Of a stretch of 64,000 nt of DNA, positions 8,210-59,571 are shown in pieces; position 1 is the first letter of the stretch, and each line of letters begins with the position of its first letter. The stretch is from an uncultured Opitutales bacterium. GTDB lineage: Bacteria; Verrucomicrobiota; Verrucomicrobiia; Opitutales; Intestinicryptomonadaceae. The stretch is from assembly GCA_900545715.1 (NCBI GenBank), contig URAJ01000005.1, forward strand, positions 1-64,000, written 5' to 3'. The translations under genes were made by a program, and so were the position numbers. Below the pieces are notes generated by a model. The model saw only the letters and a list, made by a program, of their open reading frames with translations, made no database searches and was not told the DNA's origin.

Positions 8210-8241
8210 GCGCCCTGCCTTCTTGGCGGGGCACTTTTTTT
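8210..8241 (+). terminator. Rho-independent terminator after the SurA-like gene
   Basis: GCGCCCTGCC pairs with GGCGGGGCAC across a TTCTT-type loop (one mismatch, one G-U) and is followed by seven T. It begins 7 bp after the chaperone stop. Confidence 0.85.
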
Positions 8242-8639: not shown

Positions 8640-9710
8640 ATGAAGACGTATTTTTCAAAAGTTGACAAAGCGGCCTTTGAGGGGGAAATAGACTCAAAAA
8701 AGACTGGCCTTTTTATATTGAAAAACGACAACGGGCTTGAATTGTCGGTGACGAACTTCGGCGCGCGCGTGGTGGAACTTTTTGTGCCCGACCGCAACGG
8801 AGATTTTGCCGATGTCGTCCTCGGGCACGCTTCGCTCGACAAATACGTAAACTTTCCCGGCGAGAGATTCTATGGAGCTACAATCGGCCGTTTCGGCAAC
8901 AGAATCGCGGGTGGAAAATTCACCCTAAACGGAAAGGAATACACCCTTCCGCAAAACGACGGCAACAACTGCCTGCACGGCGGCATAAAGGGATTTGACA
9001 TGAAAGTCTGGGACATTCTTGAAATAGCCCCCGACATGCTGAAATTCGGACTTGTATCTCCCGACGGCGACCAGGGTTTCCCCGCCGAGCTGAAAGTGAC
9101 CATGACCTACCGCCTGACTTCCGACAACCGCTTTGAGGTGGAACACTTGGCCGAGTCGGGCGCCGACACAGTCGTGAACCTCACCCACCATTCATTCTTC
9201 AATCTGCGCGGCGAAGGCAACGGCGATGTAAACGCGCACATAATGCAAATAAACGCCGACAAATACACGCCCGTAAAATCCGACCTCATACCTACTGGGG
9301 AAATAGCGGACGTATCCGGAACGCCCTTCGACTTCCGCTCGCCGACGCCCATAGGCGCGCGCGTCAACGACGAGAACGAGCAACTTGCGCGCGGGCGCGG
9401 ATACGACCACAACTGGGTTCTCAACCGCAAGATACCGGAGGCTCTTGAATTTGCGGCGAAAGTCTTAGAGCCCGATAGCGGAAGGGTTCTCGAAGTCTAT
9501 ACGACCGAGCCCGCAATGCAGTTCTACGGCGGGAACTTCCTCAACGGCGAGATGGGCAAGAACGGCAAGCCGTACATTTATAGAGGCGCATTTGCGCTTG
9601 AAACGCAGCATTTCCCGGACAGCCCCAACCAGCCGGAATTTCCATCGACACTCCTGAGGGCGGGCGAAAAATACTGCCACGTTTGCTCGTACAATTTCTC
9701 TGTCGAGTAA
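8640..9710 (+). CDS. galM: Aldose 1-epimerase (mutarotase)
   Basis: A 356-aa cytoplasmic mutarotase interconverting alpha and beta anomers of aldoses. The catalytic residues are visible: H113 in NNCLHGG, H183 in LTHHSFFNL, and the general base E321 in ALETQHFPDSPN, with GYDHNWVLN as substrate loop. Length and order match the GalM family. The stop overlaps the activase start (TAATG), so this is the first gene of an operon with a glycyl radical activase, a glycyl radical enzyme and an MFS sugar porter. That implies the operon handles a free, unphosphorylated aldose or a sugar-derived compound. Which sugar cannot be read from the sequence. Confidence 0.95.
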   Translation: MKTYFSKVDKAAFEGEIDSKKTGLFILKNDNGLELSVTNFGARVVELFVPDRNGDFADVVLGHASLDKYVNFPGERFYGATIGRFGNRIAGGKFTLNGKEYTLPQNDGNNCLHGGIKGFDMKVWDILEIAPDMLKFGLVSPDGDQGFPAELKVTMTYRLTSDNRFEVEHLAESGADTVVNLTHHSFFNLRGEGNGDVNAHIMQINADKYTPVKSDLIPTGEIADVSGTPFDFRSPTPIGARVNDENEQLARGRGYDHNWVLNRKIPEALEFAAKVLEPDSGRVLEVYTTEPAMQFYGGNFLNGEMGKNGKPYIYRGAFALETQHFPDSPNQPEFPSTLLRAGEKYCHVCSYNFSVE

Positions 9711-10465
9711 TGGAAGGAACTATTTTTTCAATCGAGGAATTCGCCGTCAACGACGGCCCCGGAATACGCACGACAGTCTTTTTAAAAGGCTGCCCGCTGC
9801 GTTGCCAGTGGTGCCACAACCCCGAGGGAATTTCATTTGAGCCGCAAATTCTCAAAAAGAAAAACGGCGTAGAGGAGATGTGCGGGGAAAAAATCTCCGC
9901 CAAGGCTCTCGCCGACAAGCTGCTGCGCAACGAAAAAATCTTCAAGATGAACGAGGGAGGGGTCACCTTCACTGGCGGGGAGCCCCTTGCACAGGCGCAG
10001 TTTCTGTTTGAAACAATGAGGCTGCTTAAAGATAGAGTGCACATCGCGATAGAAACGAGCGGATTCGCCAAAGCTTCGGTATTTAAAGAGGCAGTAGGAT
10101 TGGCAGACCTGATTCTCATGGACAACAAGTCGTGCGATCCGCAAGTCCACAAGAAGTTTACAGGAGTTGACAACAATCAAATACTCGAAAATTTAAGATT
10201 TTTGTGCCGGGCAGACACCGATTTTATAGTGCGCGTTCCGCTGATACCCGGAGTGAACGATACTCTCGAAAATATGGAAGCGCTGTCGGAGATTTTAAAA
10301 GGGGCAAAACGGCTCAAAAGAGTGGAACTTTTAAGGTATAATAAAATTGCCGGCGCAAAATATTATATGCTTGGCAAAAAGTATTCTCCGGATTTTAATA
10401 CAAGTATTCAACCTGATATACACGATACTTTTACAGCCAATTCAATTCCATTTATAGTGTTATGA
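9710..10465 (+). CDS. Glycyl-radical enzyme activating protein (radical SAM)
   Basis: A 251-aa radical SAM activase that installs the glycyl radical on its partner using SAM and a [4Fe-4S] cluster. Cluster cysteines are C28, C32 and C35 in GCPLRCQWCHNP. The SAM-binding TGGEP is at residues 88-92, and the N-terminal IEEFAVNDGPGIRT is diagnostic of the PflA group. Between residues 40 and 62 there is only one cysteine (C58), so the ferredoxin-like two-cluster insert common in dehydratase activases is absent. The start is ATG 9710, overlapping the galM stop; an upstream in-frame ATG at 9683 would lie inside galM. The stop overlaps the GRE start (ATGA), fixing the pair as enzyme and activase. Confidence 0.95.
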   Translation: MEGTIFSIEEFAVNDGPGIRTTVFLKGCPLRCQWCHNPEGISFEPQILKKKNGVEEMCGEKISAKALADKLLRNEKIFKMNEGGVTFTGGEPLAQAQFLFETMRLLKDRVHIAIETSGFAKASVFKEAVGLADLILMDNKSCDPQVHKKFTGVDNNQILENLRFLCRADTDFIVRVPLIPGVNDTLENMEALSEILKGAKRLKRVELLRYNKIAGAKYYMLGKKYSPDFNTSIQPDIHDTFTANSIPFIVL

Positions 10466-12528
10466 ACGAGCGTATAGAAAACTTAAAAAAATATACAACC
10501 ATAGACAAGTCCCACCGCAAATACCGCAAGAGCTCGGCCGAAGCGGGGCTTGCCGAATTGCCTGAAGATTTCAGAGCCTCCGGAATGGGATTTCAGGAGA
10601 GGGCCGGCAATATGCTCGCCGCTTTCCTCGACGCGGAAACTCCGGTAATACTCCCCGAAGAAAAAATAGTATTCACCCGCACTATAAAAGATATTCCCGA
10701 CTACGTGACTCCATCTGAATGGCAGGATATCCGCAAGTCGCACTTCGTACACGAGAAGGGAGAAGTATTCAACATATCTGCGGACTTTGAAGGAATACTC
10801 AATAAGGGACTTGAAGCCAGAAGGTTGGAGGCCGAAAAGCTCGCCGCTTCATCGGAAGGAGAAACAAAAATTTTCGCGGAATCGGTAGAAAAAGTTCTCG
10901 CCGCCCTGCAAAGGCTGATTGGCAGATACGCCGACGCCGCCGAAAAGCTCGGCAAGGACGATATCGCAAAAACGCTCCGCGCCGTGCAGAAAAATCCCGC
11001 AAGCTCTTTCCGCGAAGCCTTGCAGCTCCTCAGAGCCGTCCACTTTGCAATATGGGCCTCCGGCAGCTACCACAACACGCTCGGTAGGCTCGACCAATAC
11101 CTGTATCCGTTCTATAAATCCGACGTCGAGTCCGGCAAAATTTCCAAAGACGAAGCCTTTGAGCTGCTCGAAGAATTCTTCCTCGCCTGCAACCGCGACA
11201 GCGACCTATATCCGGGAATGCAGCAGGGCGACAACGGACAAAGCCTCGTCCTCGGCGGCCGCGATCCCTCGGGGAAACGCGCTTTCAACGAACTGTCGGA
11301 AATGGCGCTTAAAGCCAGCTACGAACTCGCACTCATCGATCCCAAAATAAACATACGCGTCGATTCAGAAACACCGATAGAAATTTTTGAGATGGGCTCG
11401 CGCCTGACAAAAATAGGGCTCGGGTTCCCGCAATACTCGAACGACGACGTCGTAATCCCGAGCCTCGTTGAGAAGGGCTACGATCTCGCCGACGCTTGCG
11501 AGTACGTAGTTGCCGCATGCTGGGAATTTATAATCCCAAAATGCGCGCTCGACATTCCGAATATCGACGCCGTGTCGCTCGCAGACTGCGTAAACTCTTG
11601 CGTGCCGGACCTCGAAACGTGCGCCTCGTTCGAGGACTTCTACGAGCTCGTCGAGCGCGAAATACGCCGCCGCGCCGACGCAATGGTTCAGAAGCACAAA
11701 AATATCTTTATGAAGCCCTCGCCGATAATGTCGGCATTCTCCGTCGGGGCGCTCGAAAATGGGCACGACATTTCCCTCGGAATGAAATACAACAATTACG
11801 GGGTCCACGGAACTGGGGTCGCCACGGCGGTCGATTCGCTCGCGGCGATAAAAAAGTATTGTTTTGACGAAAAATCCGTCGGAAAGCGCGAGCTTATCAA
11901 CGCGCTCAAAAACGATTTTGAAGGCAACGAAAAGCTTCTAAAAAAACTGCGCTATGAAGCGCCGAAAATGGGCACCGACGACGACTTTGCGGACGATATT
12001 GCAACTAAGCTTCTCGACTCTTTTGCGGCGGCGTTTAAGGATAAGAGGAACGAGCGCGGCGGCTGCTACCGCGTTGGCACGGGGTCTGCAATGTTTTACA
12101 TCGCCCACGCCACGGGCCTCGGCGCAACTGCCGACGGCAGGAGAAAGGGCGAAGTGCTCCCGGCAAACTATTCGCCTTCGCTTTTCATGAAGCAAAAAGG
12201 CCCGATTTCAGTCGTAAAATCCTTCGCGAAGCCGCATCTTAAAAACGTCGCAAACGGCGGGCCGCTGACGCTCGAATTCGACAGCTCCGTTTTCAGGAAC
12301 GACGAATCCATAAAAAAGCTCGCAATGCTCGTGCGGACTTTCATAAAGCTCGGCGGCCACCAACTCCAGCTCAACACAATCGACAGAGACAAGCTGCTCG
12401 ACGCCAAAGTCCACCCCGAAAAATATCCGCACTTAATAGTTAGAGTGTGGGGTTGGAGCGGATATTTCGTCGAACTCGACGAATGCTATCAAGACCACGT
12501 CATAAGAAGGATAGAGTTCTCACTCTAA
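10462..12528 (+). CDS. Divergent glycyl radical enzyme, putative dehydratase/eliminase
   Basis: A 688-aa PFL-fold enzyme, shorter than the usual 750-850. Family landmarks are GRLDQYLYPFYKSDVESG, LGGRDPSGKRAFNELS and DDVVIPSLVEKGYDLADA. The cysteine-loop motif is AACWEF: C353 aligns with the thiyl-radical Cys, and E355 sits where dehydratases have the Glu of GCVE; the CC pair of pyruvate formate-lyase is absent. The glycyl motif near the C terminus is RVWGWSGYF with G664, 24 residues from the end, Trp replacing the usual Tyr of RVxGY. C-x-E favours a dehydratase or other elimination mechanism over C-C cleavage. Substrate is unknown; the mutarotase and sugar porter in the operon point to a sugar or polyol. 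Oxygen sensitivity is expected. Confidence 0.9.
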   Translation: MNERIENLKKYTTIDKSHRKYRKSSAEAGLAELPEDFRASGMGFQERAGNMLAAFLDAETPVILPEEKIVFTRTIKDIPDYVTPSEWQDIRKSHFVHEKGEVFNISADFEGILNKGLEARRLEAEKLAASSEGETKIFAESVEKVLAALQRLIGRYADAAEKLGKDDIAKTLRAVQKNPASSFREALQLLRAVHFAIWASGSYHNTLGRLDQYLYPFYKSDVESGKISKDEAFELLEEFFLACNRDSDLYPGMQQGDNGQSLVLGGRDPSGKRAFNELSEMALKASYELALIDPKINIRVDSETPIEIFEMGSRLTKIGLGFPQYSNDDVVIPSLVEKGYDLADACEYVVAACWEFIIPKCALDIPNIDAVSLADCVNSCVPDLETCASFEDFYELVEREIRRRADAMVQKHKNIFMKPSPIMSAFSVGALENGHDISLGMKYNNYGVHGTGVATAVDSLAAIKKYCFDEKSVGKRELINALKNDFEGNEKLLKKLRYEAPKMGTDDDFADDIATKLLDSFAAAFKDKRNERGGCYRVGTGSAMFYIAHATGLGATADGRRKGEVLPANYSPSLFMKQKGPISVVKSFAKPHLKNVANGGPLTLEFDSSVFRNDESIKKLAMLVRTFIKLGGHQLQLNTIDRDKLLDAKVHPEKYPHLIVRVWGWSGYFVELDECYQDHVIRRIEFSL

Positions 12529-12542
12529 TTGCGGAAAAATTT

Positions 12543-13868
12543 ATGGAAAAAGCGAAGAAATTCATGTTTTACGTCGCGTTTGTCGCGTCGTTGGGCGGCT
12601 TCCTGTTTGGCTTCGACACAGTGGTTGTATCGGGGGCGGAAAAGGGAATACAAAATTACTATCAGCTCTCGGGCTGGCTGCACGGATTCACAATGGCGGT
12701 GGCCCTTTTCGGGACTATCGCGGGAGCCCTTTTCTGCGGCAGGCCAGCCGAAAAATTCGGAAGGTTGGCAAGTCTGAAAGCCATCGCATATTTGTATCTA
12801 TTTTCCGCCCTCGGCTGCGCATTCGCTACAAACTGGTGGATTTTGATTTTCTTCCGCTTTATGGGCGGTGTGGCAGTTGGCGCGTCTAGCGTCGTGGGGC
12901 CGATGTACATAGCGGAAATTGCCCCGGCGGATTGGCGCGGCAGATTCGTCGCGTTCTTTCAGTTCAATATCGTTCTCGGGCTCGTGACGGCGTACATTTC
13001 AAACTGGTGGCTAAGCGGGCTTCAGCTCACAGACGACTGGCGGTGGATGCTCGGCGTTCTCGCCCTGCCGTCCGTGCTGTTCGCCGCCCTGCTCTATACG
13101 ATACCTGAGAGCCCGAGATGGCTCGTGCTGATGGGCAGAGACTCTGACGCCGGAAGTGTTCTCAGCAGAATAGGCGATTCCAACGTCACTGCGGCACTAA
13201 ACCAGATAAAGGACTCCATATCGCAGACGGAAATCTCGGAGCCTCTATTCCAAAAAAAATACTGGAAGCCGATTCTAATCGCGTTTTTCGTTGCAACATT
13301 CAACCAGCTCTCCGGCATAAACGCAATAAACTACTACGCGCCGAGAATACTCGAAGCGGCGGGCGTCTTCCGCGAATCGGCTCTATTGCAGTCGATTTTC
13401 ATCGGAATGACAAACCTCATATTTACCATGCTCGGAATGGTTGTCATCGACAAATTTGGGCGCAAAAACCTGCTGTATATCGGCTCTGTCTTTATGACTA
13501 TCGCGCTGCTTTCCGTGGCGGCGGGCTTTAAGTACGAGTCTCTTGGCGGATATTATATGTTGTTCTCGCTGATGCTGTATATTGCGGCGTTTGCGATGTC
13601 TCTCGGAGCCGTAATATGGGTTCTAATATCGGAGGTTTTCCCGACGAGCGTGCGCGCCAAAGGGCAGGTTTTCGGAAGCATGACGCACTGGGCGTGGTGC
13701 GCGATACTTACATGGGTATTCCCCACCCTCGTAGAGAGCGGATTGTCCGTGCCGACCTTCTGTTTCTTTGCGCTTATGGCGGCTCTCACCTTTGTATTCG
13801 CTCTAAAACTTCCGGTGACAAAAAACAAGTCGCTCGAAGAAATCCAAAAGGAACTTACCAGCCAATAG
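12543..13868 (+). CDS. MFS sugar porter-family transporter
   Basis: A 441-aa, 12-helix permease of the sugar porter family (XylE/GalP/GLUT type), normally proton-coupled or facilitative uptake of hexoses or pentoses. The first helix carries LGGFLFGFDTVVVSG (residues 17-31). The loop after helix 6 has ESPRWLV, and helix 7 has FNQLSGINAINYYAPRI, the classic sugar-contacting QLS and NxxNYYxP pattern. The usual PETKG after helix 12 is altered to LPVTKNKSLEEI. Start ATG 12543 follows the GRE stop by 14 bp; the longer frame from 12447 would overlap GRE coding sequence. As the last gene of the operon it likely imports the GRE substrate. Confidence 0.95.
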   Translation: MEKAKKFMFYVAFVASLGGFLFGFDTVVVSGAEKGIQNYYQLSGWLHGFTMAVALFGTIAGALFCGRPAEKFGRLASLKAIAYLYLFSALGCAFATNWWILIFFRFMGGVAVGASSVVGPMYIAEIAPADWRGRFVAFFQFNIVLGLVTAYISNWWLSGLQLTDDWRWMLGVLALPSVLFAALLYTIPESPRWLVLMGRDSDAGSVLSRIGDSNVTAALNQIKDSISQTEISEPLFQKKYWKPILIAFFVATFNQLSGINAINYYAPRILEAAGVFRESALLQSIFIGMTNLIFTMLGMVVIDKFGRKNLLYIGSVFMTIALLSVAAGFKYESLGGYYMLFSLMLYIAAFAMSLGAVIWVLISEVFPTSVRAKGQVFGSMTHWAWCAILTWVFPTLVESGLSVPTFCFFALMAALTFVFALKLPVTKNKSLEEIQKELTSQ

Positions 13869-14089: not shown

Positions 14090-14121
14090 GCGCGGGGCGA
14101 AACGCTCCGCGCTTTTTTTTT
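14090..14121 (+). terminator. Rho-independent terminator ending the GRE operon region
   Basis: GCGCGGGGCG at 14090-14099 pairs with CGCTCCGCGC at 14103-14112 (one G-U) across an AAA loop, followed by nine T. It is the only clear terminator between the sugar porter and the next gene. Confidence 0.85.
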
Positions 14122-18919: not shown

Positions 18920-20890
18920 TTACGCCGATATAGCCCCTTTGGCAAGCGCGGCCATCGGGAAGTAATGGCAATAGTTCCCGTACCTTAGCATAAACCCGCG
19001 CGACAATTCTTTTCCTTGCGGAAGCGGCTTGCCGTTTTTTATGTCAAGCTTTGCGCCAAGTCCGTACCCTGGGAACCCTGTGCCGGTGTACTCCTCTTCA
19101 ATCCATGTGCCGTCCTTTGTCTGGGTATCCCTTAAAAATTTCAATCCCATGCCTATTTCTTTTGAGTAGCCAGAATCGAACGACATCAAGCCTATCAGCG
19201 CCCAAGCCGTCTGCGACGCAGTAGATTTTGATGCGCTCCCTGGCGTCATGTACGTCGAGGCGCTTTCCCCCCAACCTCCGTCTTTGTTTTGGATTCCGGC
19301 AAGCCAGTCCAGCGCCTTTTTAACCACAGGAGAGGACGAATCGAAGCCGACGGCCTTCAAAGCACTAAGTGCGCACCATGTCCCGTAGATATAATTTATT
19401 CCCCATCTGCCAAACCATGAGCCGTCGCTTTCCTGTTCGCTCAAAATAAATTTAACGGCCGCTTTTATGCCCGCGCTGTCTTTCGGAACGCCGCAGGAGA
19501 CGAGCGCCTCGACCACGTGGGCAGTGACATCAACGCTTGGAGGGTCGAGCACTTCGCCGAAGTCGCAGAAAGGAATTTTTGTAATGAGAGACTTGTCGTT
19601 ATTTTTATCGAATGCGCCCCAGCCCCCGTTTCTGGACTGCATCGCCTCAAGCCACGATATCGAGCGCTTTATCGCCCCGTCAACGCGCCTACCGCGCGCG
19701 TCGCCCTCAGGAAGCAGCTTTCTAAATTTTTCGAGGGCTATCATGGCGACAGCGGTGTCGTCGATATCCGGATAAAACTTGTTCGCACGCTGGAACGACC
19801 ATCCGGTAGGCTCCACGTTGCGCCCCAATTTTTCCGACCAATCTCCGTAGGTCTTATTTTCGTTTTCAAGCAGGTAATCCACAGCCTTTAAAATTCTCTC
19901 GTCGTCCGCGCCGACCCCCGCGTCGAGGAGTGAGTTTAGGGCGAGCATTGTATCCCAAACGGGGCTTTCGGTTGCCTTTACGCGCGTCCCCTTTTCGGTT
20001 TTTTCAGTCCAGTGTAGGTTTAGTGCGTTTATTGCGGCGGCCATATTTTTCTGTTTTGGGGAAAATCCAAGTATGTGCATTGCAATAATCGCGTAAATCC
20101 ACGGAGGCTGGATACCGCCCCAGAAACCGTCGTCGTCCTGGTGTTTCAGAATCCAATTCATGGCGGAATTCATGCTTTTGCGCCTAAACGAAGTGTCCGC
20201 CATTTTCTCGTTGTAGAAGTGGATTATTTTATCGGTCAGCAAAAATATGTCGGAGAGCGAAAATTTTGACGGTGTGCTAGTTTCGATTTTGGGATAGATT
20301 CGGCCGTTTGGGAAGAGCTCGTCGGCGCGCAATTCGTCCGGAAGCCTTTTTACGGGGCGCATGGATGCGACAACCGCAAGCGGCATAATTGTCGCGCGCG
20401 CCCACGAAGAAAAATTGTATATGTTAAACGGAAACCATTTAGGAAAGCATATAATTTCAGGCATTAGGGCCGGAGTTTTTTTCCAATCCCATTCGCCGAA
20501 GAGCGCGAGCCAATATTTTGTAAAAACCCTTATATTGTTTATCCAGTTGTTTTCCAAGAGCCACAGGCGCGCGGATTTCATAAAGGAGAGGTTTTTATTG
20601 AATCCAGATATCCTAAGCGCAAAATAACATTCGAGAGTCGTATTTACGTCGCCGTTTTCGGCATTTCTGTAAACGTCCCAACTGCCGTCCTCCCTCTGCG
20701 AATTTATTATATATTTTATAATCGACTCCTCCTGCCCGCTTTTTATGCCGCAAAATTTTGAGGCCATGAGCCATTGGGCCTCCATGCAGCAGTTTGTCTC
20801 GAGCTCAGCATTCCAGTAGCCGCCATCGCACTGTTTTGAAAGAAGCCATTTTACGGCGCTTTTAATATGTGTGTCGGAATCGTTTTTCAT
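18920..20890 (-). CDS. shc: Squalene-hopene cyclase
   Basis: A 656-aa class II triterpene cyclase that converts squalene to hopene/hopanol at the inner membrane. The catalytic acid motif is DIDDTA at residues 375-380. At least six QW repeats are seen, for example MQSRNGGWGAF and IQNKDGGWGES. The C terminus has GTGFPGYG and RYGNYCHYFPM, as in the family. The start is ATG 20890 giving MKNDSDTHIKSAV; an open frame continues upstream to 21097 but runs through two hairpin palindromes and has no family similarity. No squalene-synthesis (hpnCDE) genes are nearby. The gene ends convergently with the YjbR-type gene. Confidence 0.93.
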   Translation of the reverse strand: MKNDSDTHIKSAVKWLLSKQCDGGYWNAELETNCCMEAQWLMASKFCGIKSGQEESIIKYIINSQREDGSWDVYRNAENGDVNTTLECYFALRISGFNKNLSFMKSARLWLLENNWINNIRVFTKYWLALFGEWDWKKTPALMPEIICFPKWFPFNIYNFSSWARATIMPLAVVASMRPVKRLPDELRADELFPNGRIYPKIETSTPSKFSLSDIFLLTDKIIHFYNEKMADTSFRRKSMNSAMNWILKHQDDDGFWGGIQPPWIYAIIAMHILGFSPKQKNMAAAINALNLHWTEKTEKGTRVKATESPVWDTMLALNSLLDAGVGADDERILKAVDYLLENENKTYGDWSEKLGRNVEPTGWSFQRANKFYPDIDDTAVAMIALEKFRKLLPEGDARGRRVDGAIKRSISWLEAMQSRNGGWGAFDKNNDKSLITKIPFCDFGEVLDPPSVDVTAHVVEALVSCGVPKDSAGIKAAVKFILSEQESDGSWFGRWGINYIYGTWCALSALKAVGFDSSSPVVKKALDWLAGIQNKDGGWGESASTYMTPGSASKSTASQTAWALIGLMSFDSGYSKEIGMGLKFLRDTQTKDGTWIEEEYTGTGFPGYGLGAKLDIKNGKPLPQGKELSRGFMLRYGNYCHYFPMAALAKGAISA

Positions 20891-20894
20891 GAAT

Positions 20895-20953
20895 AAAAAA
20901 AGAGCAGTTGCTCTTTTTTTGTCAACATAAAAATGAGCGTTCGCTCTTTTTTT
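20895..20953 (-). promoter_or_regulatory. Tandem palindromes immediately upstream of shc
   Basis: Palindrome 1 (20895-20920) has perfect 12-bp arms, seven A plus GAGCA and TGCTC plus seven T, around a GT centre. Palindrome 2 (20929-20953) is GAGCG-TT-CGCTC with A/T-run flanks and one mismatch. Centres are 33 bp apart, about three helical turns. On the minus strand TTGACA lies between them and the shc ATG follows palindrome 1 by 4 bp. Either a TetR-type operator pair (many TetR sites are of the form TGAnCG-n2-CGnTCA) or an attenuator/insulating terminator in the shc leader would fit. Confidence 0.55.
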
Positions 20954-21364
20954 AGAAAAGCTATTTGATACCTCCCGCACGCGCCGCGGTTTTTCGCCGG
21001 GCGCATATGTCCGCAGGGTAATTTCTAACTTTGATTTAGTTATCCGCACGGCAATCAAAAATAAAACACGCAAAATCCGCTTTTTCGCCGGTCGCATCGT
21101 ACAGGCTCAAAAATGCAGAAATTTAGCATTTCCGCCACCGCATCTCTTAGGCAAAAGTCGGGAACTTATGCCGCCCCCCAGCACTTCGTAAGCGCAAAAA
21201 TTTTCCTCTAACCGTATTTATCCAAACCGAAAAATTATAAAATCCCCGCGCTCCGCAAATTATGCAATGCGATAATCTCTCCTCGCACCCGCGATTCATT
21301 ATTTATATATCCAGCCGATTTATTCAAAATCCACGCGCAAGTTTAAAATTCGCACGCCGAAACA
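20954..21364. other. Gene-free region upstream of shc
   Basis: About 410 bp of AT-rich sequence between the shc leader palindromes and the EF-hand gene terminator. I see no credible reading frame, RNA gene or repeat. It presumably holds the shc promoter. Confidence 0.5.
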
Positions 21365-32097: not shown

Positions 32098-34989
32098 TCA
32101 CAATGATTCCCTTATGTTTTCGAGAATCTTGTCCCCGCTCTGGATAAGGTTGAGCGGCTTTACCTGCATTCCGACCGACGGATCGGAAATTTTTCCGTCG
32201 ACAGTCACCTGAATGACGCTTGATATCGGGCTTACGATGGTTGCAATTCCCGTCATAATCATGCCCTTTGCACCGTCAAACGGGTACATTACCATAGCCG
32301 CGTCTATATCGTCGTTTACAAAGTCGTATGAAGCAGCGCCCTTTATGCGCATTGCGTCTCCGCCCATTTCAAGGTCGGGAAATTCCACAACGCCGCCGTG
32401 TATTTGCACTGCGCTGTTTGCGTAAGTTATCTCGAATGTTCCAAGCGGAAGCCTAAGCGCCGCAAACGCCCTCGACAACACCCCGAACATATTCAGCTTC
32501 ATAAGATCCGGGTTATTAAGAGTCGCATGCCCGCTCCCGACAGAATGGGCGATGTCGGCAACGTCGCCCTTTAAGCTCAAATTCATATCCACCAATCCGC
32601 TCTCGCCGCCGTCGAGGAATCCCTTTTCGTCAGCTCCCTCTTTCTTTGAGCCGGCCCCGCCTTGTCTATCCCCGCCGCCAGACGCCTGCAAGTTTTCCGC
32701 GCCGCCCTGCGCCGCCGCACCTACCTGCCCGGAAGGTTCCTCGGAGCCCTCCAAATCTTTCGACGGATCGAGCGTTATCAAAAATTTTGTAAACTCTGCC
32801 TGGTTCATTTTTGACGCCTTAGCGGAGGCGTCAAAAAGCATCTTGCCGTCTTTCTTTTCAAGCGTGATTTTCCCGTCGGCATGCCCTCCGCAAAATTCAA
32901 AGGAGGCTTCGTCAACGCTTGTGAGAATCTTGTCGCTCTTGGCCGAAAACCTCAGATTTTGCAATACGGCCGTTTCAATCATAGTCTGTTTGGGCGCAAA
33001 ACCGGACACATTGAATATGTCGGGAAGCTTGTCTGGGTTGTTCGACGGATTGCGCATAATCCCGCTCACGGTAATTTCCGGCGCCTCCGAAAATTTTACA
33101 ACTTCAAAAATATCGGACACGTCCTTTCCTCCGAGAGACACAAGCTCCGAAGGCGACAACCCCGACACTATAAAGAGTGTCTGGCGGTCAAATCTCGTTA
33201 GCCCCTTTGGCCCGTAAAGCCATTGCACATTGCCGTGCGCGTTGCGGTTCTGGCATCTAAGGCGTATATCGTACAGAGAAATTCTCGACGGATTAACCCA
33301 TACGTTTAGAGAAAATTCGTCGAACTTAGAGCCGTTGTATAGGGCGTCCGTACCATTCGCGCTCCCATAGCACCATATAAAGTCGGGGCTTCCCCACTTT
33401 CCCTCGACGTAAAAATCCGCCTTCGGGAATCTTCCGTCCGCAAATTCAAAAGACTTAAACACCCTTCTCCACCACGGCGCCATAAAATGCGATATTGCCA
33501 TTGGGCGCACGGAGCCGTCCACATATATTTTATACACAAAGTCCCTTATGTTTTGGACAAATCTCCCGGAGGCCTTCCACCCCTCTACCGCCTGCACTTC
33601 AAGTTTTGAAGCGTCTATTATTCCAGTAGCCGAATCGTATTCCACCTTCCCTGCGGCGCGCCTTACGGGAATATCCATTATCACGCAATCCGAGGCCTCA
33701 AAATCTACGCTCGCATCGAGATCTTTTTCGACAAAGTCGCAATTCAAATTACCTTTTAGGGAAATACCCCTGTCGAACGAAAATTTTTTCAATTCCGCAA
33801 TGTCGGAAAAAAACTTATGCCCCGTAAATATTTTTGGATCGATAGAGCCGGAAAACTCCGCGGAAAGCTTCATATACTTGTCGAGCGAAAATCTCGCCCC
33901 AAAGCGATAGTCGTCAAAGGCCGCAAAAGCGTACCAGTCGTCGCCAAGCGTTTCCGAGTCGAGATAGTCTTTTTTTAGCGAAACATTGTCGATTTTTAGA
34001 CCCTCGTACTCCATATTTCCCACGGACACCCCGACATTCGAGAGCACTATGGATTCTCCCGCCCCGTAAAGGTTTGCGGACGTCGAGAGATTTTTGCAGT
34101 GCGGCATTCCCTCGCAAAAAAATCGTTCCGCGCGCGCTCCGAAAAATAGGCCGTCCGATATTTTACCGCCGTCGTACCTTATTCCGAACCTCAGGTTTTC
34201 CACGCGCGCCTCGAGATTTTTTATCGGGAACACCGCCTCCCCCGAATAAAACCTAAACCGCCCCCTGCTCGACTCCGCGTCCGACAAAAAAATTCTCGCC
34301 GAGCAAACGGGAGACTCAAAAATATCCAAATACCCCGAATACTTCTCGAGCGCGGCAAACGCTGCATTTATTCTCGACGACAAAGGCGGCTCCTTGCCTT
34401 TGGCCTCTGGCAGGTCGAGCCCGTTTTTTCCCAAAAACTCTGCGACGGAAAACTTTTCTGAAATATCGACCGTAGCTGACGCCGTAAGCTTTCCGATTTT
34501 AAAATGCGACGAATCGACACTCCACCATTGCCCAGACTTTGAAACGCTCAAATACAAATGCGAAACCGCCGCCTCGCCCACGCCGCGTATAGTGTCGCCG
34601 AGCGAACCGTTGTACACGCGTATGTTTCTCGGCACGGCCTCCCCGTTAAAGAGGCGCGTGAGCCATAGGGAAAGATCTATTTTTTCTGCGGAAAAAAACG
34701 CCGAAGGCGTCCCTTCGGCGCGCAGAGTCACGTCGTTTATTTTGATTCTTCCGTCAACGGAAATGCTCGCGGAAGAGTAGCGCAAGTCGAAGCCGTATTT
34801 CGAAGCTGCGCGGGCTACGGCCTCATTGACAAATTCCGGCAACGGAAACTCTCTTTTATTGAGGGCGTAAAAAAAAACCGCCTGCGCGCAAAATATTAGA
34901 ATCAAAAGGAAATTCAGCGGATACAGCGCCCTCCAAAACGCATTCAGCGCATGCGTCCTAAAAGACATTTCTTTTTGCTGGTTTTCCAA
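32098..34989 (-). CDS. Large AsmA-like inner-membrane protein
   Basis: A 963-aa protein with one N-terminal membrane helix (LNFLLILIFCAQAVFFYAL) and a long beta-rich periplasmic body. The C terminus, from about residue 815, carries the AsmA-like pattern of GHATLNNPDLMKLNMFG, LGTFEITYANSAVQI and GKISDPSVGMQVKPLN. A low-complexity Gly/Ser/Glu linker lies at about 745-790. AsmA/TamB-like proteins form rod-like hydrophobic grooves proposed to move phospholipids across the periplasm. It is the last gene of a five-gene operon with a Gld-type ABC transporter and starts 2 bp after the preceding stop. Confidence 0.85.
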   Translation of the reverse strand: MENQQKEMSFRTHALNAFWRALYPLNFLLILIFCAQAVFFYALNKREFPLPEFVNEAVARAASKYGFDLRYSSASISVDGRIKINDVTLRAEGTPSAFFSAEKIDLSLWLTRLFNGEAVPRNIRVYNGSLGDTIRGVGEAAVSHLYLSVSKSGQWWSVDSSHFKIGKLTASATVDISEKFSVAEFLGKNGLDLPEAKGKEPPLSSRINAAFAALEKYSGYLDIFESPVCSARIFLSDAESSRGRFRFYSGEAVFPIKNLEARVENLRFGIRYDGGKISDGLFFGARAERFFCEGMPHCKNLSTSANLYGAGESIVLSNVGVSVGNMEYEGLKIDNVSLKKDYLDSETLGDDWYAFAAFDDYRFGARFSLDKYMKLSAEFSGSIDPKIFTGHKFFSDIAELKKFSFDRGISLKGNLNCDFVEKDLDASVDFEASDCVIMDIPVRRAAGKVEYDSATGIIDASKLEVQAVEGWKASGRFVQNIRDFVYKIYVDGSVRPMAISHFMAPWWRRVFKSFEFADGRFPKADFYVEGKWGSPDFIWCYGSANGTDALYNGSKFDEFSLNVWVNPSRISLYDIRLRCQNRNAHGNVQWLYGPKGLTRFDRQTLFIVSGLSPSELVSLGGKDVSDIFEVVKFSEAPEITVSGIMRNPSNNPDKLPDIFNVSGFAPKQTMIETAVLQNLRFSAKSDKILTSVDEASFEFCGGHADGKITLEKKDGKMLFDASAKASKMNQAEFTKFLITLDPSKDLEGSEEPSGQVGAAAQGGAENLQASGGGDRQGGAGSKKEGADEKGFLDGGESGLVDMNLSLKGDVADIAHSVGSGHATLNNPDLMKLNMFGVLSRAFAALRLPLGTFEITYANSAVQIHGGVVEFPDLEMGGDAMRIKGAASYDFVNDDIDAAMVMYPFDGAKGMIMTGIATIVSPISSVIQVTVDGKISDPSVGMQVKPLNLIQSGDKILENIRESL

Positions 34990-41503: not shown

Positions 41504-42682
41504 ATGAAAAATATACTAATACCAATCGCGGCGGCTCTAATGCCGCTTACAGTATTCGCTGACACCTCATCGGAAAAATTGTCCGACCCAAAATTCGAGC
41601 AGAAGCTTGAAACGCTGTGGGATAAGACTGCAAAAACTTTCTACTCACCCAAAACCAATATTTTCTATACAAGAAGCATAGATAAAATTCCCGGGCCCGA
41701 ATTAATCAACGAATACAAGCCGCTAAAGAAAAACGGAGATCCAAACTATATGGGCGGCGGAACCGGAACTGAAGACTGCTCGATGCTCTGCGGAATAATG
41801 CTCGCCGGCCTTTGCGACAAGTACGAAATAAAAAAGGACGCCGAAACAGCAGACTGGGCGCGGAAGATTGCCAAGGGTCTGATGCTCGCCGACACTGTCC
41901 ACGGCGACCCCGGCTTTGTCGCCCGAGGCGTTTCGCCAGTTGACGGCAAAAGCGTCTATCCCGAAACCTCCCGCGACCAATACACGCACAATATCCACGG
42001 CCTGTGGCGGTACTTCAATTCGCCGATAGCGACCGACGCCGAGAAAAAGGAAATTGCCGCAATTTTTTGCGCCGTCGCGGAAAAGATGAAAAGGGAAATC
42101 CGCCCCGACACAAACCCTCCGTACACCTACAAGCTCCATAAAGGTGTTCCCGACAAACGCGGCGTGGCAAAAATGCACGATGTTCACCCGCACGAAGCCG
42201 CGAGGCTCGCAATGCTCTACGCCGCCGCGTACGACGCTACAAAAAATAAAAAATACCTAAACTGGTACAGGGCTGTGTACGACGACGCAGTAGGCGGCTC
42301 GGCAAAGTTCATCGGCATGCGCGAGACATACTACAAGCATCTTGTCCCGCCCTACTCCATCGCGCAAATGAACGCCTCTCTCGAGCTCATAAGAGAAGTT
42401 GAACCCGACCCAAGCCGCAAGTTGCAAATTTCAATAATTATGGACGCCGTATCTGATTTTATCGACAAGTACAAAGTCTACCACGTATCGGATAAGAGCG
42501 TCCGCGACGCCGCCGAGATAATGTGGGGGCAGATGCTCGCCAACGGCTACCGCCTAAGCCCGGCTCGTGAAAACATACTTAAACAAAACATAATAAAAAT
42601 ACACGAGCGCGACCCGTACGGCGCCTACATGGTGTTTTCCGCATACTGGCGCGCCCGTCTCGACGAGGAAAGGGGCAAGTAA
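41504..42682 (+). CDS. Secreted six-hairpin-like (alpha/alpha barrel) protein
   Basis: A 392-aa protein with signal peptide (MKNILIPIAAALMPLTVFA). The body is mainly helical with conserved-looking blocks GGGTGTEDCSMLCGIML, FVARGVSP and SRDQYTHNIHGLWRYF, and a run of helices such as HPHEAARLAMLYAAAY. This arrangement resembles six-hairpin glycosidase-type proteins found in Verrucomicrobiota and Lentisphaerae. The D/E residues around SRDQYTH could be catalytic, but I cannot name a family with confidence. It is likely periplasmic or extracellular and carbohydrate-related; the specific substrate is unknown. Confidence 0.75.
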   Translation: MKNILIPIAAALMPLTVFADTSSEKLSDPKFEQKLETLWDKTAKTFYSPKTNIFYTRSIDKIPGPELINEYKPLKKNGDPNYMGGGTGTEDCSMLCGIMLAGLCDKYEIKKDAETADWARKIAKGLMLADTVHGDPGFVARGVSPVDGKSVYPETSRDQYTHNIHGLWRYFNSPIATDAEKKEIAAIFCAVAEKMKREIRPDTNPPYTYKLHKGVPDKRGVAKMHDVHPHEAARLAMLYAAAYDATKNKKYLNWYRAVYDDAVGGSAKFIGMRETYYKHLVPPYSIAQMNASLELIREVEPDPSRKLQISIIMDAVSDFIDKYKVYHVSDKSVRDAAEIMWGQMLANGYRLSPARENILKQNIIKIHERDPYGAYMVFSAYWRARLDEERGK

Positions 42683-57560: not shown

Positions 57561-58616
57561 ATGAAAAATAAAACGGCTCTAATAACTGGAATAACTGGGC
57601 AAGACGGCTCGTATCTTGCGGAAATACTTCTGCAAAAAGGCTACGATGTCCACGGCATAATACGCCGCTCAAGCTCTTTCAACACCAACAGAATCGACCA
57701 CCTTTACAACGACGAATCCCTTAACGACAGGTTCTTCCTGCATTACGGGGATTTGACGGACTCCTCGAACCTAAACAGAATACTCGAAAAAACCCAGCCC
57801 GACGAAATCTACAATCTCGGCGCCCAAAGCCACGTCAAAGTGAGCTTTGAAGTTCCCGAGTACACCGCAGATGTTGACGCCGTCGCAACCCTGAGGTTTC
57901 TCGACGCAATAAAAGATATGGGGCTAACAAGGCAGGTAAGATTCTACCAAGCCTCCACCTCCGAGCTATTCGGGAAAGTCCAGGAAATTCCCCAAAAGGA
58001 GACAACGCCGTTCTATCCGCGCAGCCCCTATGCGGTAGCCAAGCAATACGCATACTGGATTGTCATAAACTACCGCGAAGCGTACGGCATATTCGCAAGC
58101 AACGGCATTCTTTTTAACCACGAATCCGAACGCCGCGGAGAAACTTTTGTCACGCGCAAAATCACAAGAGCCGCCGGAAGGATCAAGCTCGGGCTTCAAG
58201 ATAGGCTCGTACTCGGCAATATGGACTCCAAGCGCGACTGGGGATACGCTCCGGAATACGCCGAGGGCATGTGGAGAATCTTGCAGGCGCAGACCCCCGG
58301 GGAATACGTCTTAGCCACGAACGAAACCCACACCGTAAGGGAATTTACGGAGCTTGCTTTCGCGCGGCTGGGAATGGAAATTGAATGGGTCGGCAAAGAG
58401 GAGAACGAAAAGGGCATATGCAAAAAAACAGGAAAAATTCTCGTAGAGGTAAACCCGCGCTACTACCGCCCGACCGAAGTGGATTTTCTCCTCGGAGACC
58501 CATCAAAGGCAAAGAGGGAACTCGGCTGGGAACCCAAGACTACATTTAAGCGCCTCGTCGAGATAATGACAGACGCCGACTTCAAGCTCGCCGAGCGCGA
58601 GGCCGCCTTGAAATAG
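57561..58616 (+). CDS. gmd: GDP-mannose 4,6-dehydratase
   Basis: A 351-aa short-chain dehydrogenase-type enzyme making GDP-4-keto-6-deoxymannose. The dinucleotide motif is [15 protein letters not shown] and the active-site [10 protein letters not shown] follows later. The segment [21 protein letters not shown] is a Gmd signature. Length is normal. It precedes fcl by 4 bp, giving the two-step path to GDP-L-fucose. A TATAAT hexamer at 57554-57559 abuts the ATG and is too close to be a normal -10 element. Confidence 0.97.
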
Positions 58617-58620
58617 AGCA

Positions 58621-59571
58621 ATGAAAAAAACTGACAAGATATACGTTGCCGGCAACGGCGGAATGGTCGGCTCCGCAATAGAAAGAGCCTTGCGCCGCAA
58701 CGGCTATGACTGCGTTATAGGGCGCTCCCACAAGGAGCTCGACCTCACAAACCAAGCCCAGACGCTCGACTTCTTTGTGAAAGAGCGCCCGAAAGTAGCG
58801 GTAATCGCCGCGGCGAAAGTGGGCGGCATATACGCCAATGCGACCTTCCCGGCCGAATTTATAGAAATAAACTTGTCAATCGCGCTAAACACGATTACTG
58901 CCGCATATAAAGCCGGCGTCGAGCGCCTTCTATATTTGGGAAGCACTTGCATTTACCCGCGAATGGCCCCACAGCCGATTCCGGAGAGCGCCCTTCTAAC
59001 CGGACCTCTTGAAAAGACGAACGAAGCTTACGCCGTCGCAAAAATCGCAGGGCTGAAACTGTGCGAATTTTTTAGGAAGCAATACGGCGTATGCTACCAT
59101 AGCGCAATGCCGACAAACCTCTACGGCGAGGGCGACAACTACCACGAAAAAAATTCGCATGTGCTACCAGCGTTAATAAGGCGTTTCCACGAAGCAAAAG
59201 AAAAAAATCTCGATAAAGTCGAGCTCTGGGGAACAGGCTCTCCGCTTCGCGAATTTCTGCATGTTGACGACCTCGCAGACGCATGCCTTATGCTCCTTAA
59301 TCTCGACAATCCCCCGGATCTTGTGAATCTCGGAAGCGGCGAGGAAGTGAGCATTGCGGAACTCGCAAAAATTGTAGCCGAAACTGTAGGGTACAAGGGC
59401 GAAATAGTTCACGACCTCTCAAAGCCGGACGGCACTCCGCGCAAGCTGTGCGACACTTCCCTGCTGCGCTCTTTTGGCTGGAAGCCGAAGTACGACATCC
59501 GCTCGGGCGTTAAGGCGGCATACGGAAGTTTCCTGTCGGAGCTTGCGTCCGGGAAAATAAGAGGCATGTAA
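58621..59571 (+). CDS. fcl: GDP-L-fucose synthase
   Basis: A 316-aa epimerase/reductase that converts GDP-4-keto-6-deoxymannose to GDP-L-fucose. NADP motif [25 protein letters not shown] and YAVAKIAG are as in WcaG/Fcl. It forms a two-gene operon with gmd and is followed by a strong terminator 29 bp later. Fucosylation of capsule, O-antigen or glycoproteins would use the product; the glycosyltransferases are not in this window. Confidence 0.97.

Follow-up and report, generated by a model that had tools for sequence, protein, structure and literature searches.

The first 64,000 nucleotides of contig URAJ01000005.1 (assembly GCA_900545715.1), from an uncultured Opitutales bacterium and referred to here as the window, contain a four-gene operon that encodes a mutarotase, a glycyl radical enzyme (GRE) activase, the GRE itself and a XylE-like sugar porter of the major facilitator superfamily (MFS). 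We think it rather probable that this operon imports a free, unphosphorylated sugar and starts its catabolism by radical cleavage of a C-O bond with the GRE, an oxygen-sensitive enzyme; the sugar is probably one released from plant glycans. We are fairly sure that the GRE acts as an eliminase on a sugar, or on a close derivative of one, imported in unphosphorylated form. The enzyme belongs to a sharply defined family that record titles place across gut and rumen anaerobes and for which no characterised member was found. This family is widespread and lies within the known superfamily, and it represents no new kind of system.

The four open reading frames (ORFs) lie on the forward strand where a sequence-only reading of this stretch had placed them, and their coordinates, families and tight borders bear out its proposal that these overlapping or closely spaced genes form one operon. 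The GalM-type aldose 1-epimerase, or mutarotase (8640..9710, 356 aa), matches Aldose_epim (PF01263, 291 bits) and the NF008277 subfamily above its cut-off, and it scores 337.4 bits against TIGR02636, under the cut-off of 397.65. Its stop codon has one base, at 9710, in common with the ATG of the radical S-adenosylmethionine activase (9710..10465, 251 aa; Radical_SAM), which scores 233.3 bits against TIGR02494 (cut-off 174.35) when searched with the ORF taken from 9683. The cluster motif CX3CX2C of this activase reads CPLRCQWC and, by its cysteine count, the protein carries no ferredoxin-like cysteine insert. The activase in turn overlaps the GRE (10462..12528, 688 aa; PFL-like and Gly_radical) by four bases. 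The sugar porter family MFS protein (12543..13868, 441 aa; Sugar_tr) most likely starts at the ATG at 12543, 14 bp past the GRE stop, 12447 being merely the first start codon of its ORF. Searched with the ORF from 12447, it matches PF00083 at 338.7 bits and passes TIGR00879 (334.1 bits vs a cut-off of 237.8), and its best structure matches are D-xylose/H+ symporters (257 bits).

Both a mid-chain thiyl cysteine and a PFL-like barrel are present in the GRE, and the length of 688 residues and the numbering of C353, E355 and G664 given in the sequence-only reading are correct. The thiyl-radical loop AACWEF (residues 351-356, 11512..11529), with C353 and E355, is invariant in the alignment, and the glycyl radical motif RVWGW (residues 661-665, 12442..12456), with G664, recurs there and in the surveyed loci: AACWE and RVWGW are found together, with the radical glycine kept, in 80/80 homologous loci. 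These motifs had been taken as non-canonical for GREs, a description that does not hold, as RVWGW conforms to the GRE C-terminal fingerprint RVXG[FWY] as it stands in part of a 2024 JACS paper (PMC11528403), all 80 loci carry the two motifs and a GRE outside the family has similar ones. The assignment of the Cys/Glu loop to the eliminase type is supported, with Cys-X-Glu (C353, E355) present in 43/43 aligned family rows. The family was compared with seven other GREs, all of them partial sequences and two of them (L125 and L126 in our locus numbering) close relatives. The tryptophan after the thiyl cysteine (C353-W354) and the asparagine at 367 (11560..11562), which aligns with glycerol dehydratase Asp447 if no gaps are allowed, each occur in all 43 family rows and in 1/7 other GREs. 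There is also a family-typical polar loop, DSDLYPGMQQGDNGQS (residues 246-261, 11197..11244), in which D246, S247, D248, Y250, Q254, Q255 and N258 are found in 43/43 family rows and S261 in 42/43, and none of them in any of the seven others. In total, 32 positions are conserved in 41 or more of the 43 rows and absent from the seven other GREs, the polar stretch DSD.Y...QQ..N among them.

The CWE/RVWG pattern is not unique to the family, because a Hungatella GRE (L128, G004:C1:3574994-3576580; a 693-aa open frame, 33% identical to the window GRE over residues 142-684) carries SACWEP and RVWGF, the sole one of the seven compared GREs with such motifs. It resembles the family in its ACWE loop, its RVWGF motif and equivalents of D293, K295 and N367, and differs in being without YHN and most of the DSDLY..QQGDN loop; possibly it represents a sister family of short GREs.

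A protein search with the GRE returned at least 7510 matches, GREs in general included (best 7998 candidates scored). Among the 120 matches listed, identity to the GRE is at least 59% and length 686-691 residues, save four of 644, 682, 694 and 717. At least 577 of at least 595 pattern-bearing stretches in genome contigs code for relatives of the GRE, a count in which a locus may appear twice. The best matches in 13 genomes have 49-85% identity, one genome contains a second member at 43%, and other GREs reach at most 36% over spans of at least 400 residues. Record titles place the family in Opitutales, Bacteroidales, Clostridia and Spirochaetes, and named strains include Parabacteroides chinchillae DSM 29073, Hungatella hathewayi DSM 13479 and Diplocloster agilis ASD5720. 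Its distribution is patchy, with matches at E <= 1e-150 in 11/299 genomes around Clostridium symbiosum and 3/251 around a Bacteroides. One locus (L025, 3367-5298) has a GRE match with an in-frame stop, which reflects a fault in the assembly or else a disrupted gene.

The gene neighbourhoods of the 80 loci kept for survey connect the GRE to sugar uptake. By record title, 45 belong to Bacteroidota or Verrucomicrobiota, and 41 of these have at least 1 kb of DNA downstream ("with room"), leaving out L020, L027, L034 and L043, the last of which has its porter upstream; the 35 other loci include three (L069, L071, L079) whose titles give no phylum. Presence was counted by tblastn because greedy ORF calls preferred an antisense ORF to the activase (L005, L015, L026, L035, L039, L044, L070). 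An XylE-like porter lies within 4.2 kb of the GRE in 41/41 Bacteroidota/Verrucomicrobiota loci with room, directly behind it in 36; the remaining five have it upstream or at a distance of 4.1 kb downstream. No porter was detected in the 35 loci outside these phyla, 19 of which hold Rbs- or Mal-like ATP-binding cassette (ABC) genes. A mutarotase is found in 18/41 loci with room and 4/35 others; from the 3-5 mutarotase genes present in each of three genomes of 2.7-6.0 Mb (G001-G003 in our genome numbering), we estimate that about 2% of 20 kb spans would contain one, an enrichment that stands as no formal test because the loci are related. The porter expected from the sequence-only reading is thus a regular neighbour in these two phyla and the mutarotase a frequent but not an obligatory one, and an unphosphorylated sugar as substrate, also proposed there, is plausible.

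The activase was detected in 76/80 loci, in 66 of them within 150 bp of the GRE. It was undetected at the cut-off used in L004, L038, L048 and L079, the DNA upstream of the GRE being short in L038 (154 bases) and L048 (645 bases). In L020-L023, L027, L029 and L062 the activase stands 1.2-1.4 kb ahead of the GRE, with an opposite-strand GntR-type gene called in between. A ferredoxin-like cysteine motif occurs in 3/36 activases from Bacteroidota/Verrucomicrobiota (window included) and 27/31 from elsewhere, as counted among ORFs recovered by clustering, with one row without CX3CX2C dropped per group.

Glycosidases also occur near the GRE. Genes of glycoside hydrolase (GH) type GH127 were found in 18/80 loci by single-linkage ORF clustering, with four members checked against Pfam; tblastn with a coverage limit gave 14 for each of two main queries. 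GH106 is present in three Verrucomicrobiota loci, and GH78 in two and GH88 in four Clostridia loci. The GH127-type protein of L007 has its best match in 6ex6 (645.9 bits), which we take to be the aceric acid hydrolase BT1003. GH127 enzymes include beta-L-arabinofuranosidases as well as BT1003, according to portions of two papers (PMC10850190, PMC5698469). The idea that GH127 supplies L-arabinose was dropped, as more than one subtype is represented among the GH127-type genes and GH106, GH78 or GH36 takes their place at other loci. In three Bacteroidales loci (L032, L039, L044) the GRE lies within a long, mostly co-oriented gene run, which in L032 includes four proteins of 484-901 aa without a Pfam match at E 1e-6, possible members of unnamed glycan-active families.

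Because the Cys/Glu pair is conserved and the predicted fold is nearest to eliminases, as described below, the GRE would belong to the C-O eliminases by chemistry. As judged from its family, the MFS porter would bring in the sugar by H+ symport, the mutarotase would equilibrate the anomers of substrate or product, and the activase, by family and motif, would place the glycyl radical on G664. The radical would then move to C353, whose thiyl radical would take a hydrogen from a carbon next to a hydroxyl, with E355 acting as base, and the neighbouring C-O bond (hydroxyl or ring oxygen) would be expelled, as in glycerol and propanediol dehydratases and in PflD/YbiW. Return of the hydrogen from C353 would give a deoxy keto- or aldo-sugar, which may later be phosphorylated and cut by an aldolase, a XylB-like kinase and DeoC being clustered with the GRE in the C. 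symbiosum/Diplocloster group. One tentative, rather doubtful version has a free aldopyranose as the direct substrate, with the mutarotase supplying one anomer and the thiyl radical taking C1-H or C2-H; expulsion of the neighbouring C-O, in the same tentative version, would yield either a 2-deoxy-aldonolactone or else a 1-deoxy/anhydro-ketose. The lactone would agree with the SGL-like propeller (SMP-30/gluconolactonase-type) that five genomes have near the GRE. If this version were true, sugar catabolism could begin with a radical step and without isomerase, oxidised cofactor or prior phosphorylation.

The GRE is distant from every characterised enzyme with which it was compared. It scores under every NCBIfam equivalog listed for characterised GREs, including those for HypD (284.3 bits vs a cut-off of 1100), CutC (242.2 vs 1050), HPAD (181.6 vs 1150), IAD (191.1 vs 1100), sulfopropanediol dehydratase (two models, 261.4 and 252.7 vs 1000) and NF007437 (PRK09983; 277.7 vs 1109), presumably the PflD model, and that for pyruvate formate-lyase (PFL; TIGR01255, 82.2 vs 994.2). 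No solved GRE exceeds 29% identity over the chain, the closest by sequence being Streptococcus dysgalactiae PflD (8id0, 254.5 bits). An AlphaFold2 model of the GRE (pLDDT 92.6, pTM 0.92) has eliminases as its leading structural neighbours, namely PflD, glycerol dehydratase, propanediol dehydratase and CutC. PflD and glycerol dehydratase tie for the best fold score in Z, with PFL ten and class III ribonucleotide reductase twenty Z units lower, so that the predicted fold is nearer to PflD and glycerol dehydratase than to PFL. The sugar GREs among these neighbours are S. dysgalactiae PflD with 1,5-anhydromannitol-6-phosphate and Escherichia coli YbiW with 1,5-anhydroglucitol-6-phosphate, two of the closest relatives, which the sequence-only reading had left off its list of characterised GREs; its view that the enzyme matches none of those it listed is supported. 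In part of a 2019 study, a GRE sequence network that split activities at about 60% identity still left uncharacterised clusters (PMC6453916).

It is possible, if doubtful, that the GRE is an unphosphorylated counterpart of PflD/YbiW, opening or forming a 1,5-anhydro-sugar ring by C2-H abstraction and C1-O cleavage to give a 1-deoxyketose, with the XylB-like kinase acting next. XylB acts on 1-deoxyxylulose, and PflD is both the closest solved relative by sequence and tied for best by structure. PflD and YbiW turn the anhydrohexitol 6-phosphates into 1-deoxyfructose-6-phosphate, according to sections of a review (PMC12441222). Against this, identity is just 22-28%, glycerol dehydratase ties with PflD in Z, and the stretch RSxSSAxxFAGFPTGYT common to two PflDs is replaced by DSDLYxGxQQGDNGQS, five residues fewer. 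In addition, a non-reducing anhydro sugar needs no mutarotase, and the closest relative (G001) is without an FSA-type aldolase.

In five genomes (G005, C. symbiosum; G006-G008, Diplocloster; and G190), together the C. symbiosum/Diplocloster group, the GRE is found with an Rbs-type ABC system, GH88, a YghZ-like aldo-keto reductase (AKR), an SGL-like beta-propeller, a zinc dehydrogenase, a XylB-like FGGY kinase and a DeoC family gene. GH78 is present in the four clusters whose wider region was read (all but G008, which was read from locus L075), gene order varies, and the G190 kinase lies about 11 kb away. The Diplocloster DeoC scores 230 bits against TIGR00126, above the cut-off of 117.3, and its motifs KTSTG and KAAGGIR are kept in the four genomes checked; the kinase (372.6 bits vs 380.25) and the YghZ/L-glyceraldehyde-3-P-reductase-like AKR (411.1 vs 448) fall below their cut-offs. 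One GRE-bearing Bacteroides encodes, together on a different contig, proteins related to SGL (54%), the kinase (47%), the dehydrogenase (37%) and DeoC (54%); to judge by sequence alone, its SGL protein resembles a secreted lipoprotein, and two small membrane-like proteins lie between it and the kinase. Among the 299 genomes, the GRE occurs in 11, the SGL gene in 12 and both in five, vs 0.44 expected with kinship ignored, a count made after the SGL module had first been seen beside the GRE; the two are linked in three of the five and unlinked in G004 and G215. The module is thus tied to the GRE in some lineages and is no fixed partner. Next to the window operon we recognised no kinase, aldolase or isomerase, although not every window ORF was run against a library; their absence, to which the sequence-only reading had pointed, is a local one, as these five genomes of the family have the GRE with kinase and aldolase.

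These clusters also bring up an alternative that we consider unlikely, in which the GRE is a 1,2-diol dehydratase acting on an alditol made by the AKR, and the resulting 2-deoxyaldose passes through the kinase and DeoC to acetaldehyde and triose phosphate. DeoC, the XylB-like kinase and the YghZ-like AKR in the Diplocloster cluster and related clusters speak for it, as does a GRE fold near the diol dehydratases. The AKR query, however, had no match at the cut-off used in 45/45 Bacteroidota/Verrucomicrobiota loci and the mutarotase is frequent there, so that a free aldose seems to be the imported form; moreover, the module exists without the GRE, and G001 has no TIGR00126-type DeoC. A strict scheme in which the GRE feeds DeoC is weakened, with SGL-dehydrogenase-kinase modules in genomes without the GRE and GRE genomes without modules.

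Several observations weigh against the import of a free sugar for radical cleavage as we propose it. With the DNA available per locus, the mutarotase was not found in 23/41 Bacteroidota/Verrucomicrobiota loci, and 11/35 loci outside these phyla, some on short contigs, are without any queried sugar gene. GH127 names no sugar, as the family has several activities. The kinase module is independent of the GRE, given that seven of the 12 SGL-bearing genomes are without the latter; in three of the seven (G160, G176, G219) the SGL, dehydrogenase and kinase genes are adjacent, with DeoC also present in two of the three. In the Bacteroides sample (251 genomes), a kinase match at E <= 1e-100 is missing in two of the three GRE genomes; the kinase occurs in three genomes, two of them with just 38% identity, and the single genome of overlap is the one where the SGL-kinase-DeoC module had been found. 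G001, whose GRE is 85% identical, has neither a TIGR00126 DeoC nor a TAL/FSA aldolase; it gave a single FGGY match and, at 74 bits, a single weak match to the broader DeoC/LacD family. The partners in GRE-free clusters (ThuA, a short-chain dehydrogenase, a phosphotriesterase-family protein and a cupin-type isomerase) do not name a sugar. The module of SGL-like propeller, zinc dehydrogenase and XylB-like kinase is itself conserved in Clostridia and one Bacteroides, GRE present or not (L159 in G002:C80, L168, L170-L172 and L141-L146), several of these loci with GH88 or DeoC.

It is very improbable that the GRE is unconnected to sugar and that the porter, mutarotase and glycosidase genes lie beside it by chance or only locally. 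Twelve of the 80 loci (L034, L042, L048, L051, L056, L057, L058, L061, L069, L071, L077, L079), several on short contigs, have the activase only, or none, of the queried genes, as this would predict, but the porter at all 41 loci with room, the Rbs/Mal-like ABC genes at 19 of the 35 others and the mutarotase at 18/41 against the roughly 2% expected all speak otherwise. A PFL-type C-C lyase or ketoacid lyase, suggested by the automatic database names of some homologues, is rejected as barely credible, with CW in place of the CC pair, a TIGR01255 score of less than a tenth of the cut-off and a fold score ten Z units below PflD and glycerol dehydratase.

If the family acts on free sugars, as we propose, anaerobes would have a further way to ferment sugars of plant glycans, and any tally of "pyruvate formate lyase" from gut data would then take in a different metabolism. 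Where source names are given, most homologues go by formate C-acetyltransferase or pyruvate formate lyase.

The operon is flanked by a SurA-type peptidyl-prolyl isomerase gene (Pfam) on one side and a valS-like gene on the other, and members of the same ORF clusters border it in L005, from a Puniceicoccaceae genome whose GRE is 85% identical. Terminator-like hairpins lie between the SurA-like gene and the operon (8212..8232, forward strand; 8 pairs, 7 G-C, then a T run) and past the MFS gene (14090..14112, forward strand; 10 pairs, 9 G-C, then a T run). They lend weak support to the operon borders because the 13 such sites in the window are little above the 10.9 +/- 2.9 in shuffles. Elsewhere in the window are a squalene-hopene cyclase gene (18920-21097, reverse strand; PF13243, PF13249) and two ORFs without a Pfam match at E 1e-5 (32098-34989, reverse strand, 963 aa; 41504-42682, forward strand, 392 aa). 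The mfd-like and valS-like neighbours, and two genes at 57561-59571 resembling GDP-mannose 4,6-dehydratase and GDP-fucose synthase, are named only by the look of their sequences.

Finally, the window GRE can be placed among known systems. It shares superfamily and activation chemistry with trans-4-hydroxyproline dehydratase, choline trimethylamine-lyase, sulfopropanediol dehydratase and the arylacetate decarboxylases, but lies far below each equivalog cut-off. PFL is of the same superfamily, but its adjacent Cys-Cys pair is replaced here by CW. The aminoacyl radical enzymes, noncanonical GRE homologues with Ala, Ser or Thr, are likewise GRE-like with an activase, whereas the glycine is kept here in all 80 loci. 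Compared with the B12-independent glycerol and 1,2-propanediol dehydratases, the window GRE is about 100 residues shorter and has C-W-E for C-V-E. The glycerol dehydratase diol ligands, which we take to be H281, S282 and D447 (with the role of Asp447 likewise assumed), fall on Y203, H204 and N367 in the ungapped reading, where phmmer put gaps, so on this uncertain mapping the family keeps the two catalytic residues but seems to contact its substrate differently. PflD and YbiW, at the identity given above, fall outside the same isofunctional group, and their substrates are 6-phosphates made by the phosphotransferase system, as the available part of the review has it (PMC12441222), whereas here the importer is of MFS or ABC type, genes of the phosphotransferase system not having been searched for. 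The nearest characterised enzymes are glycerol dehydratase and PflD/YbiW.

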